Source: a virus
Direction: 5' to 3' (one strand)
IMG/VR virus record: IMGVR_UViG_3300007276_000162
Coordinates: 1-32,699 of that record
DNA: 32,699 nt
The notes under the pieces were generated by a model. The model worked only from the letters and a program-made list of their open reading frames with translations. It had not been told where the DNA came from and did not search any database. The translations under genes and the position numbers were made by a program. Numbering within the stretch: the first letter of the stretch is position 1; every line of letters begins with the position of its first letter. Shown piece after piece: positions 27,363 to 32,110 of the stretch.

Positions 27363-28049
27363 ATGGCATTACCGAAGTTAAATGAAACACCCAAGTACAG
27401 TTTGACAGTCCCATCTACCGGCAAAGAGTGTAGATATCGACCATACTTAGTGAAAGAGGAGAAGATCCTCCTCATGGCATCTTCATCAGAAGATCCCAAA
27501 CAGATAATGAATGCAGTACATGATACGGTAGGTGCATGTGTAGAAGGTCTTGACGTACGATCACTGACCACGTTTGATCTGGAATATATCTTCATTCAGT
27601 TGAGATCCAAATCAACGGGCGAGACCAGTGACATTCTACTGAAGTGTCCTAAGTGTGAGAGTCAACAGAAGGTGACTATACCACTAAACGAGATTAAGGT
27701 ATCTAACTCGACCGCAGACCCGGTCATTAAGATATCCGACACAGTAACGGTAGTGATGAAGTATCCTAGTTATCAGGATATCCCTACTGACGCAGGAGAA
27801 GATGTGGGTTTCAATCTGATTGCAAGTAGTATCAAGAGTGTGATCAGTGGAGACGAGAAGATAGAGGTCGAAGACGAACCGTTTGAGGGTGTGATTGGGT
27901 TCCTTGAATCTATGACACAGGATCAGTTCAAGTTGATCACACAGTTTTTCGAAGACTCACCGGTGGTAAAGTATGACTTACCTTTCGTGTGTCAGAGTTG
28001 TGGTGCAGCAGAAGATATTGAAATAAAGGGAATGCAAAGTTTTTTTTGA
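27363..28049 (+). CDS. 26: baseplate hub / tail assembly protein gp26
   Basis: A 228-residue protein (208 in T4). The opening MALPKLNETPKYSLTVPSTG, then YRPYLVKEEKILLMA and FDLEYIFIQLRSKS, is the T4 gp26 baseplate family (T4_baseplate). Two CxxC pairs, Cys95/Cys98 (CPKC) and Cys210/Cys213 (CQSC), could bind one zinc. In T4, gp26 is needed for hub assembly. The gene ends in a run of eight T (28040-28047) just before TGA, and a second ORF continues in the -1 frame, so a gp26-gp51 fusion of 293 residues is likely made by frameshifting (see the separate entry). It precedes the tape-measure gene, as tail-assembly chaperones do. GGAG lies before the ATG. Confidence 0.87.
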   Translation: MALPKLNETPKYSLTVPSTGKECRYRPYLVKEEKILLMASSSEDPKQIMNAVHDTVGACVEGLDVRSLTTFDLEYIFIQLRSKSTGETSDILLKCPKCESQQKVTIPLNEIKVSNSTADPVIKISDTVTVVMKYPSYQDIPTDAGEDVGFNLIASSIKSVISGDEKIEVEDEPFEGVIGFLESMTQDQFKLITQFFEDSPVVKYDLPFVCQSCGAAEDIEIKGMQSFF

Positions 28050-28111
28050 TATGCCTCGCACATGAAGAACTTTCCAATTACTTTAAAGTAAACTTCTTGT
28101 TGCAGAGGCAT
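28025..28111 (+). promoter_or_regulatory. probable programmed -1 ribosomal frameshift signal at the gp26/gp51 junction
   Basis: Three elements align. The slippery heptamer T TTT TTT is at 28040-28046 in the gp26 frame, immediately before the TGA at 28047. An AAGGG Shine-Dalgarno-like stimulator lies at 28026-28030, nine bases upstream, a spacing like that of E. coli dnaX. A stem forms between ATGCCTCGCA (28051-28060) and TGC-A-GAGGCAT (28101-28111): ten pairs with one bulged A, starting 4 nt after the heptamer. Inside it AAGAA/TTCTT (28065-28069 with 28094-28098) and TTAC/GTAA (28078-28081 with 28088-28091) can extend the structure. The -1 ORF has no ATG in frame before residue about 32. Confidence 0.75.
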
Positions 28112-28243
28112 CATAATTATACATTGACTGAACTAGATATGATGATACCGTGGGAGAAAGAGGTACATACCATTCTCCTGCTCCAAGCACTGGAAGAAGA
28201 GAAAGAAGCTAAAGAGAAGGCAAAACATGGCAATAACACTTGA
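28046..28243 (+). CDS. 51: gp51-position ORF, -1 frame extension of gp26
   Basis: Sixty-five codons in the -1 frame relative to gp26, beginning at TTG inside the T-run. Seen: ELSNYFKVNFLLQRHHNYTL, then TELDMMIPWEKEVHTILLLQ and a charged helical end EEEKEAKEKAKHGNNT. In T4 the gene after 26 is 51, a hub-assembly protein of about 249 residues, so this is far shorter and may be a domain rather than a separate protein. No in-frame ATG exists near the start, and the nearest purine-rich site is 15 nt from the TTG, too far for ordinary initiation. Expression as the C-terminal part of a gp26 fusion is more likely. It overlaps the gp29 start by 17 nt. Confidence 0.78.
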   Translation: MICLAHEELSNYFKVNFLLQRHHNYTLTELDMMIPWEKEVHTILLLQALEEEKEAKEKAKHGNNT

Positions 28244-29720
28244 AGACGTAGTCCTCGAACAAATGGACACCAACGAAACTCTCGGTAGGTTAGTCGATAG
28301 GACTAACATTCTGATCGAGATGGAAGGTGACAGTTTCGCGGGTCTTGAGTTACTCAACGAACAGTTCGAAACGTTCCTTGGTCTTGTGCGTAAACAATAT
28401 GCACTTGAGGACGAGGCACGCCGTGAGAAAAGGGATGGACTCGTACCTGCTCCTCAAGATGACGAGGAGAAGTTGAAACCTGAAGAAGCGTACAAAGGCA
28501 TTGAAATGCCTATCATCACTTTAGGTGCGGGACTCGCATTATTCGCAAGAGACTTTGTTAAAGGTTTTGTTGAACAGACCAAGAAGATGTTTAGGGTAAA
28601 CGTTTTCAAACCAATAGAGTCTATATTCGGATTCATCGGTGATAAACTCAAGTCAATCGGAAACTTCTTTAAGAACATCGGTAGTAAGATATCTGGTCTA
28701 TTTGGTGGAATATCAACCAGTGGTTTAGGCATTGTAGATAACATCAAGAAGATGTTGGCACCAATCACAGAGTTCGGTGCAAAGTTGATGCAGAGTCCTT
28801 TTGTGAAAGTACTGGCGGGTATTGGTAAACTACTAGGTAGATTCGCTGTACCTCTTGTTGCGTTATATGAAACCTTTACGAACGTGTCTGAGGAACTTGG
28901 AAAATCTGGCGACAATATCTTTGGGGTTGGTGGAAAGATTCAAGCGGTAATGAAGGGTCTCCAGAAAGCGGTTGTGGACTTCTTTGCAATCTTCTTAGAC
29001 ATACCCAAAGACATTATCAGTTGGTTTGCAGGTTTACTTGGATTTGATGGTGTAGAGAAAGCATTAGACTCCTTTACTTTCGCAGGTCTTGGTGATGCTA
29101 TTATCGATGGTGTGTGGGACATTATGAATGGCATAAATGCCTGGTTTGGCACACTCTTCACCAACGTAAAGGATCTTTTTACAGGTGAGATAAGCTTTGA
29201 TGACTTTGGTAAAAACCTAGTCAGGTCAGTGTTACCTGAAGCAGATACATTGAAGTTTGAGATACCTTCATTTGAAGTGTTCGGCAAAACTCTTGGTGGT
29301 GGGTCGATGCAACTGAATCCTATTCCTGATTCGGTGTACAACTATGCAGGAATGGAAGCACCGGGTGGAATTGGATTCATATCCAATAGTAGTGGTGGTG
29401 ACACATCCAACGTTTCAAGTGTAGGTGGTGAAACGACCAATAGTGATAGTACAGTCTCTACGGAGAACATTGAGAAGTTACGACAACAGTTTAATGCAGA
29501 GTCACTACAGGCAATTAATGAAGAGAATGCGATCACGAATGCGATCAATACAGAGAGTGTTACTAATGTAGGTAGTTCACAGAGCGCCCCAGTAATAATC
29601 CAAGACAACTCTGTGAACTCCTCCAATCAATCAAATGTCAATCAGTCTGTTCAAGGTCGGAGATCAATGCGATCCCCAACCTCTAACAATGGCACCCGTG
29701 CGAGTGCCTATGCGTCCTAG
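28227..29720 (+). CDS. 29: tape measure / baseplate hub protein gp29
   Basis: A 497-residue protein (T4 gp29 has 590). Residues 1-85 are charged and helical (NETLGRLVDRTNILIEMEGD). Residues about 92-330 hold repeated amphipathic, Phe/Ile/Leu/Gly-rich segments (VFKPIESIFGFIGDKLKSIG, LGRFAVPLVALYETFTNV, IISWFAGLLGFDGVE, GINAWFGTLFTNVKDLF) typical of tape-measure proteins, which extend inside the tube and may cross the host membrane. The last 120 residues are Ser/Asn/Thr-rich and disordered. AGAAGG precedes the ATG inside the previous ORF. The stop TAG overlaps the convergent gp32 stop in the palindrome CTAG (29717-29720). Confidence 0.85.
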   Translation: MAITLEDVVLEQMDTNETLGRLVDRTNILIEMEGDSFAGLELLNEQFETFLGLVRKQYALEDEARREKRDGLVPAPQDDEEKLKPEEAYKGIEMPIITLGAGLALFARDFVKGFVEQTKKMFRVNVFKPIESIFGFIGDKLKSIGNFFKNIGSKISGLFGGISTSGLGIVDNIKKMLAPITEFGAKLMQSPFVKVLAGIGKLLGRFAVPLVALYETFTNVSEELGKSGDNIFGVGGKIQAVMKGLQKAVVDFFAIFLDIPKDIISWFAGLLGFDGVEKALDSFTFAGLGDAIIDGVWDIMNGINAWFGTLFTNVKDLFTGEISFDDFGKNLVRSVLPEADTLKFEIPSFEVFGKTLGGGSMQLNPIPDSVYNYAGMEAPGGIGFISNSSGGDTSNVSSVGGETTNSDSTVSTENIEKLRQQFNAESLQAINEENAITNAINTESVTNVGSSQSAPVIIQDNSVNSSNQSNVNQSVQGRRSMRSPTSNNGTRASAYAS

Positions 29721-30684: not shown

Positions 30685-31050
30685 TTAGATACCAGTTGGC
30701 AAGGGTTGCCAGACAGAATCCGCAGTAAATACAAATGACCCTAAGAACTCTTGATCCCAACGTTCAGGTTCAATCAGACTTAGAATCACCTTACCGTTAA
30801 TACGGTAAAGATGGTACTCCACTCCTACCCGAGGTGTGAAGTTATAAGATGCAGTATATATCAATTCGTTCAACTTGGCAAGCTCCACAAGTTTTCGGTA
30901 TTCATCATTAATGAGATCTATTTTGTTTTCAAAGTAATTACGTGCAAGAGACCCGCGTTGAGATAGGAACATATCATTGTCCGGTAACTCAATCGCGGGC
31001 ATATTTGAACTGGTACCATAGGGTAACAGTGCCTTTCTAGAAGAGGTCAA
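30685..31050 (-). CDS. DUF2452 family protein
   Basis: About 121 residues from the TTG at 31050. LLPYGTSSNMPAIELPD, then GSLARNYFENKIDLINDEYR, then YNFTPRVGVEYHLYRINGKV and SLIEPERW followed by LGSFVFTADSVWQPL match the DUF2452 family throughout. Function is not known; members occur in bacteria and marine T4-like phages. Start choice: the LPYG segment is part of the family, so the ATG at 31002 is too late, while codons upstream of 31050 only shadow metK. GGGAG four bases before TTG supports it. It overlaps the metK stop by 14 nt and is likely coupled to it. The ATG at 31089 cannot be excluded. Confidence 0.75.
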   Translation of the reverse strand: MTSSRKALLPYGTSSNMPAIELPDNDMFLSQRGSLARNYFENKIDLINDEYRKLVELAKLNELIYTASYNFTPRVGVEYHLYRINGKVILSLIEPERWDQEFLGSFVFTADSVWQPLPTGI

Positions 31051-32110
31051 GTTTCTCCCATGGCAGATCCTTGTTGCCAAAGTGACCATAGTTTGTCATG
31101 AGGGTAAGGTCTCTAGAGAAGAGTTTAAACCGATCTATGATTCCCTCGGGTGTAAGGTCAACCTTACTTCTAATCTCTTCTACGAGGTCGTCACGGACTT
31201 TGCCATCTGCATAGACGTACAGACTGGTGGGTTCTTTAACACCGATCGCATAACTCAACTGAACAGTACAGTTCTCTAACCCGAACTCATGTACTATATT
31301 CTTTGCGATATAACGTGCCATGTATGCACCAGACCGATCTACCTTAGTACAGTCCTTACCGGAGAACGCACCACCACCGTGAGGACAGTATCCACCATAG
31401 GTATCAACAATGATCTTACGCCCTGTCAGACCCGCATCACCATCAGGCCCACCAATGATGAACTGACCAGTGGGGTTGATCAGATACTCGGTATCAATGT
31501 CCACCCAACCCTCTAGAATGCGTTCAATGCACCCCTGTACGATGTTACGTACCGAACTAATACTCTGGGTCTCTTTGTGTTGAACACTACAGACAACCTT
31601 ACTGACTCGTACAGGTTTACCAATATCGTCATAGTCTACAGAAACCTGTGCCTTCGCATCAGGGCCATAAGGGAGAGTTTTAGTTACGTTCTTCAAAATC
31701 TCATGACTCAAGGAGATTGCAAGGGGCATATACTCTTTGGTTTCCTTACAGGCATAACCAAACATCAGACCCTGATCACCTGCACCAAAGTCGTCCGTAC
31801 CCATTGCGATATCAGAACTCTGTCCATGAAGATGGTTGGTGAAGTCAAAGGTCTCCCAGTGAAAACCTTCCTGTTCATAACCAATTTCTTTCACAACGTC
31901 ACGAGCGATCGTTTCACAGTCTTCGAGACTCTTGTTAGAACGATACTCTCCCGCAACAGTGACTGAGTTGGTAGTAACCATCGTCTCGACCGCAGCACGA
32001 TTCTCTTTCTTATAGTCGATTAGATAGGTAGCGATTGCATCCGAGATTGCATCGGCAACCTTATCAGGATGACCTGCACTAACACTCTCGCTTGTAAACG
32101 TGTACTTCAT
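31037..32110 (-). CDS. metK: S-adenosylmethionine synthetase
   Basis: A 357-residue enzyme that makes SAM from methionine and ATP (bacterial enzymes are about 384). Diagnostic motifs are all present: SAGHPDKVADAISDA (His14, Asp16, Lys17), FGAGDQGLMFGYAC (108-121), GGPDGDAGLTGRKIIVDTYGG at 220-240, GGGAFSGKDCTKVDRS (245-260) and the end YGHFGNKDLPWEK. It therefore looks active. The ATG is preceded by a strong AAGGAG. It lies between gp33 and DUF2452/gp32, so it belongs to the replication/late-control cluster rather than the tail genes. Inferred roles are SAM supply for DNA methylation, for polyamine or host metabolism, or replacement of SAM when it is depleted. It was presumably acquired from a bacterium. 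Confidence 0.95.
   Translation of the reverse strand: MKYTFTSESVSAGHPDKVADAISDAIATYLIDYKKENRAAVETMVTTNSVTVAGEYRSNKSLEDCETIARDVVKEIGYEQEGFHWETFDFTNHLHGQSSDIAMGTDDFGAGDQGLMFGYACKETKEYMPLAISLSHEILKNVTKTLPYGPDAKAQVSVDYDDIGKPVRVSKVVCSVQHKETQSISSVRNIVQGCIERILEGWVDIDTEYLINPTGQFIIGGPDGDAGLTGRKIIVDTYGGYCPHGGGAFSGKDCTKVDRSGAYMARYIAKNIVHEFGLENCTVQLSYAIGVKEPTSLYVYADGKVRDDLVEEIRSKVDLTPEGIIDRFKLFSRDLTLMTNYGHFGNKDLPWEKLDLF

Follow-up and report, generated by a model that had tools for sequence, protein, structure and literature searches.

The question raised by this locus is how the gp51-type segment behind gp26, which lies in the -1 reading frame, is expressed. The window, that is, the stretch of DNA analysed here, is the whole virus record of 32,699 bases, and all features of the junction are on its + strand. 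The gp26 open reading frame (27363..28049, 228 amino acids), assigned as the short tail-assembly chaperone (TAC-N) by Pfam, PHROG and an AlphaFold model, reads AGT TTT TTT TGA at its 3' end by direct reading of the sequence. The slippery heptamer T_TTT_TTT occupies positions 28040..28046, inside a run of eight T (28040-28047), and is abutted by the zero-frame TGA of gp26 (28047..28049). A Shine-Dalgarno (SD)-like element, AAGGGA, is located at 28026..28031; its first five bases, AAGGG (28026-28030), end 9 nt before the heptamer. Following a 4-nt spacer (28047-28050), folding gives a stem with the 5' arm at 28051..28060 and the 3' arm at 28101..28111, consisting of ten pairs with one bulged base at 28104. 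The -1 frame extension (TAC-C, the gp51-type tail, 28046..28243) has 65 amino acids and a stop, and was recognized by its match to phrog_634 and by its third-position changes. It overlaps by 17 bases the next ORF (28227..29720, ATG at 28227, 497 amino acids), a probable tape measure protein in the gp29 position. The predicted fusion of 228 and 65 codons has 293 residues with the junction S-F-F-L-I-C. These elements had all been described in the initial annotation and were found again, base for base, where it placed them. One of its remarks, that the -1 ORF offers no start codon that could be used, needs a correction for the window: a TTG of that frame (28046-28048) overlaps the TGA of gp26.

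The elements and their conservation in relatives point very strongly to a programmed -1 frameshift, which would fuse gp26 with the gp51 part into a long tail-assembly chaperone in a marine T4-like phage. Most ribosomes would read gp26 to the TGA and give the short form of 228 amino acids. With tRNA-Phe on both codons of T_TTT_TTT, and the ribosome held by AAGGGA upstream and the stem downstream, some ribosomes would slip back by one base, and both tRNAs could re-pair perfectly. Translation would then continue through the gp51-type tail to give the long form of 293 amino acids. By analogy with lambda gpG/gpGT, a comparison already drawn in the initial annotation and an apt one, the short form would be expected to bind the product of the next gene, the tape measure protein, and the long form, made in minor amount, to assist in initiating the tail tube on that protein. 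The slippage itself, its rate and its role in assembly are what we infer.

The identity of the two parts was compared with that of the corresponding T4 proteins. The window gp26 matches the Pfam family T4_baseplate (PF12322, E 4.8e-61, residues 10-228) and phrog_150 (baseplate hub, E 6.2e-64). The extension matches phrog_634 (gp51) with E 2.1e-20 (3.4e-20 in a second run), and also the C-terminal end of the gp26-family profile phrog_150 with E 1.3e-4 (0.0012 in the second run). T4 gp51 contains PF12322 at residues 1-201, followed by a 48-residue tail that aligns with the extension of the window, and it also matches phrog_634. Its residues 3-248 match phrog_150, a profile of 282 positions, as far as position 280, and the match of T4 gp26 stops at position 235; T4 and 44RR gp51 cover nearly the whole profile, and 44RR gp51 matches the fusion of the window over residues 14-268 in one piece. 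On the basis of the span of these profile matches and the alignment of the tail, T4 gp51, as read from its sequence, consists of another gp26-type domain that continues in frame into the tail; the marine gp51 is the tail only. This explains the apparent shortening of gp51 in a 2010 comparison, in a part of which cyanophage and marine vibriophage gp51 are given as about 200 residues shorter (PMC3037559): the missing part is gp26, read before the slip.

The extension was compared with that of near relatives. It differs from the corresponding segment of L016 at 10 bases and from that of L097 at 11. Third codon positions in the -1 frame account for 9 and 10 of these differences, respectively, and the encoded protein changes by one amino acid in L016 and by none in L097. 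For the ORF after the fusion, the best matches are to tape-measure PHROGs and are weak (phrog_5448, E 1e-6; phrog_991, E 1.3e-4), and a Pfam search of this ORF gave no significant match. Further along the window, a DUF2452 protein (30685-31089, - strand) has an ORF that overlaps by 53 bases that of an S-adenosylmethionine synthetase (31037-32110, - strand), in which all three Pfam domains are present. The latter is a host-type metabolic gene in a phage, and it sits between a gp32-like gene and a gene for the late-transcription coactivator.

The AlphaFold model of gp26 has a pLDDT of 86. In the VIA-align ranking of this model, taken over 999 aligned chains, the HK97 tail assembly chaperone 2ob9_A is at the top with a Z of 7.3 (below 8) and an rmsd of 3.5 over 82 residues; it is tied with the uncharacterised 3fgx_A (Z 7.1), and the next chain has a Z of 4.4. 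Foldseek alone gives 2ob9_A an E of 1.6, and its search of the PDB with the gp26 model returned no match at E ≤0.001. A search of the sequences of solved structures with the gp26 alignment returned none up to E 1. In a viral structure library, the best named matches of the model were baseplate hub chaperones and subunits. The VIA-align ranking provides moderate evidence that the predicted gp26 fold may be like that of the HK97 chaperone. The TAC-C model (pLDDT 76.5) consists of three helices.

To assess the junction in relatives, loci were collected from IMG/VR by two scans, of which the best 80 matches of each were kept (three shared, giving 157 loci), and named phages were added. The resulting 172 records consist of the window and 171 loci; one locus, L004, is the window itself and was left out. 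The loci were picked by similarity to the gp26 of the window and are therefore mostly marine relatives; in L096 the gp26 is identical. The named members include cyanophages, pelagiphage Mosig, Pseudomonas Astolliot, Aeromonas Ahp1, Vibrio R10Z, Desulfovibrio 7757 and Agrobacterium OLIVR5. Both parts were found in 166 of the 172 records and on one strand in 164; the remaining two are T4 and an Acinetobacter phage, where they are separate genes. In L026, L123 and L157 there is no gp51 match, and these records end 1 to 30 bases past gp26. L013 and L014 have no gp51 match by profile and stand outside the 164; by eye, their gp51 part is in the -1 frame, without T_TTT_TTN. L007 has no gp26 match with the small profile.

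Wherever the two parts share a strand, in 164 of 164 loci, the gp51 part follows in the -1 frame, and T_TTT_TTN is found at the junction of 163 of these loci, the exception being phiMAM1 (L006). This supports the frameshift reading and bears out the heptamer conservation that the initial annotation had proposed to look for. The A-site codon of the 163 sites is TTT in 90, TTC in 68, TTA in 4 and TTG in 1; the last five loci indicate that the site is retained where the second zero-frame residue is Leu. Other Phe-Phe pairs in the same loci are coded in slippery form in 57 of 715 cases, or in 57 of 288 if the count is limited to pairs that follow a codon with T or C as its third base (stop-to-stop frames with a minimum of 180 amino acids on both strands, unfiltered for real genes). 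Set against these controls, the recurrence of the slippery site at homologous junctions is more than chance. As the contrary case, the initial annotation had pictured relatives with an ATG for the second ORF and without a slippery run. The run is present at 163 of 164 junctions, and only far relatives partly resemble that picture: Ackermannviridae and Vibrio phage D532 are without T_TTT_TTN, and some of them have TAATG.

Grouping of the 163 site-bearing loci at 50% identity gave 57 groups, which are drawn from loci having the site and are no separate test of its presence. In 82% of these non-redundant groups an SD-like tetramer starts 11-15 nt before the heptamer, compared with 8.5% on average, and never more than 23%, in 30 upstream control stretches. 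Codons for a conserved Lys/Glu-Gly pair of gp26 overlap the element, and for this reason selection on the protein and on the RNA is inseparable here.

The third element, the downstream structure, is more restricted. For the window, the whole predicted fold has -20.1 kcal/mol with a z of -3.5 (none of 200 shuffles was as stable), and the trimmed stretch has a z of -4.5. Over 57 loci, with the window counted twice, folding is strongest directly after the site (mean z -1.35, versus +0.31 to -0.64 at 15 other positions). A z below -2 is reached by 33% at the site, by 16% in the two neighbouring stretches and by 2-9% elsewhere, so that two thirds of the 57 groups are without such a fold at the site. 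With the window left out and stretches of 60 nt, the lowest mean z is -1.16 at +10 and the value at offset 0 is -0.73, where the paired test is modest (p 0.02, n=56).

The stem of the window itself is kept, with at least 6 of 7 outer pairs, in 10 of 163 loci, the window included, all of them near relatives; nine have 7 of 7 outer pairs and one has 6. When the 3' arm was slid in either direction by 1, 2, 3 or 6 bases, 6 of 7 pairs were reached in one locus (at +2) and 7 in none. The alignment of the stem holds eight of the ten loci, L096 and L100 having been dropped as identical there. In these eight sequences pairing amounts to 92% in an outer helix of 16 pairs and to 87% over the whole structure, as against 37-54% when slid. 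Five pairs carry changes in both partners, such as the replacement of C-G by U-A in L101. The covariation score was reached by none of 500 shuffles, the number of pairs changed on both sides by 32 of 500, and the number of further pair types by 174 of 500. A downstream structure common to all loci was rejected, since for the largest cluster (91 loci) RNAalifold returned no structure, and the stem of the window is limited to the ten loci. Other loci fold into different hairpins. One of about 9 bp recurs within the SLVNHYKT codons of the extension in L025, L043, L047, L050 and L075, some 20-45 nt past the heptamer; it could be either another type of stimulator or a coincidence of the coding sequence. 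Separately, an Rfam search over 27950-28260 gave a single match, cyano-S1, whose 18 bits (E 0.51) fall short of the gathering score of 39.9, and it was taken as chance.

Three other explanations of the junction have to be weighed. The one that survives best is stop-start coupling, in which the gp51 part is a separate short protein and translation restarts at a codon overlapping the gp26 stop, here the TTG at 28046. The overlap with the TGA is indeed present in the window, a -1-frame ATG overlaps the stop as TAATG in R10Z (L012), L176, L014, L178 and D532 (L013), and public records annotate gp51 as its own gene. However, a scan for start codons from the opening of the -1 frame to the position of a conserved His in the extension (His in 150 of the 163 loci) found neither ATG, GTG nor TTG in 114 of 163 loci, and no ATG in 136; the window is among the 49 that have a start codon there. 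Restart is therefore not the general mechanism, as judged from these reading frames. In the window, moreover, AAGGG ends 15 nt before the TTG, which is far for a usual start, and the coupling leaves T_TTT_TTN at 163 of 164 junctions unexplained. We regard this explanation as very unlikely for the window.

Slippage of the RNA polymerase on the T8 run is still less probable, and we give it a very small chance. One U added to a fraction of the mRNAs would put the same fusion in frame, and the eight T of the window would allow for this. But the run at the junction has only six T in 73 of the 163 loci, seven in 42 and eight in 48, and never more than eight. The codon phase of the site is also constant throughout, although neither this phase nor the SD-like element would be needed by the polymerase. 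A sequencing or assembly error splitting one ordinary gene, thinkable in an error-prone homopolymer where nine T would give one open frame, has a negligible probability and is refuted by the comparison across 164 loci, all with the same frame relation, including the independently sequenced isolates S-SSM5, Mosig and C48C1, and with 68 sites ending in C.

Programmed frameshifting at T_TTT_TTN is thus the preferred reading for the window and its relatives, and other arrangements are found in related lineages. In T4 (L005), 44RR (L007) and an Acinetobacter phage (L015), gp26 and gp51 are two genes on opposite strands, and gp51 is the fused form. In an unrooted tree, in which 44RR gp26 is a long branch, the six rows of this duplicated type fall together on the same side of one branch (94/88, not starred), a pattern that fits an origin from one duplication. 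Five loci of Ackermannviridae type (L006:3715-3765, L014:3760-3830, L174, L177 and L178) have the gp51 tail in the -1 frame with a site [AG]TTTTCAT, besides which L014 and L178 have TAATG; either another slip mechanism or a restart could operate there. The site of phiMAM1 (L006) is G_GTT_TTC, which we take to be the slip site of T7 gene 10. In Vibrio phage D532 (L013:3620-3760), where TAATG is present and a canonical heptamer is absent, the tail is likewise in the -1 frame, and its sequence suggests that it is probably made by restart. Schizotequatrovirus R10Z (L012) and its relative L176 also have TAATG, and a restart may operate there as well. Scans starting from L006 and L012 yielded two loci each, and one with the D532 protein yielded none.

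These arrangements allow us to propose, tentatively and with a likelihood slightly short of even, that the TAC junction of T4-like phages is a recoding cassette of three parts, an SD-like element, T_TTT_TTN and a downstream structure. The third part would be rebuilt clade by clade, the group of the window having its own stem with compensatory changes. Related lineages would reach the same two-protein output by a different slip site, by a TAATG restart or by the gene duplication of T4. If so, this gene is a natural experiment on keeping or replacing a frameshift ratio; the clade-specific stem and the alternative solutions are the parts worth following.

It is important to note that public records misannotate the frameshifted gene. 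None of 12 annotated records (L001, L002, L003, L006, L008, L009, L011-L014, L177 and L178) has a joined CDS at the junction; ten list gp51 as its own gene, and L006 and L177 list nothing there.

The arrangement can be compared with several known systems. The E. coli dnaX cassette has an SD-like element, the heptamer A_AAA_AAG and a downstream stem, in that order. The order of elements in the window is the same, but the gene is unrelated and the heptamer is different. The frameshift site of lambda is G_GGA_AAG, as opposed to T_TTT_TTT in the window, and the likeness drawn here is one of arrangement. Tail assembly chaperone frameshifts of other phages were reportedly described by Xu, Hendrix and Duda in 2004. 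In lambda, as predicted for the window, a short chaperone and its -1 extended form are encoded, and in passages of PMC5009743 the two forms, gpG and gpGT, act on the tape measure protein. For Vandenendeviridae phage Adele, a part of PMC12846349 argues by sequence comparison that a TAC-C in the -1 frame precedes the tape measure gene and that a T-rich site is conserved. This phage belongs to another family, and its site is an invariant GTTTTT and not T_TTT_TTN (same part of PMC12846349).

The closest system is that of the T4-like chaperones gp26 and gp51 themselves, which are of the same gene family and have the same two-part product as predicted for the window. According to Vladimirov et al. 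in 2022, the frameshift is reportedly conserved in several T4-like groups, and T4 is said to use genes 26 (TAC-N) and 51 (TAC-NC). The initial annotation knew of no report for this family, but, as passages of PMC10885494 and PMC12846349 have it, the tail-assembly chaperones of T4-like phages had been named by Vladimirov, Gautam and Davidson 2022 (Virology 566:9-15). The same passages mention poly-T frameshift signals in TAC-N genes of T4-like phages (PMC12846349) and, in some such phages, a separate short gene with a fused long gene instead (PMC10885494). A section of a T4 review presents gp26 and gp51 as hub assembly chaperones and also cites genetic evidence for gp26 as part of the hub, which counts against a chaperone-only reading (PMC3004832). 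In those parts of the open-access literature on T4-like TACs that were returned by queries directed at other matters, neither an SD-like element nor a stem at the junction is mentioned. The window is thus a well-supported new example of an arrangement known from T4 relatives, and not a new kind of system.
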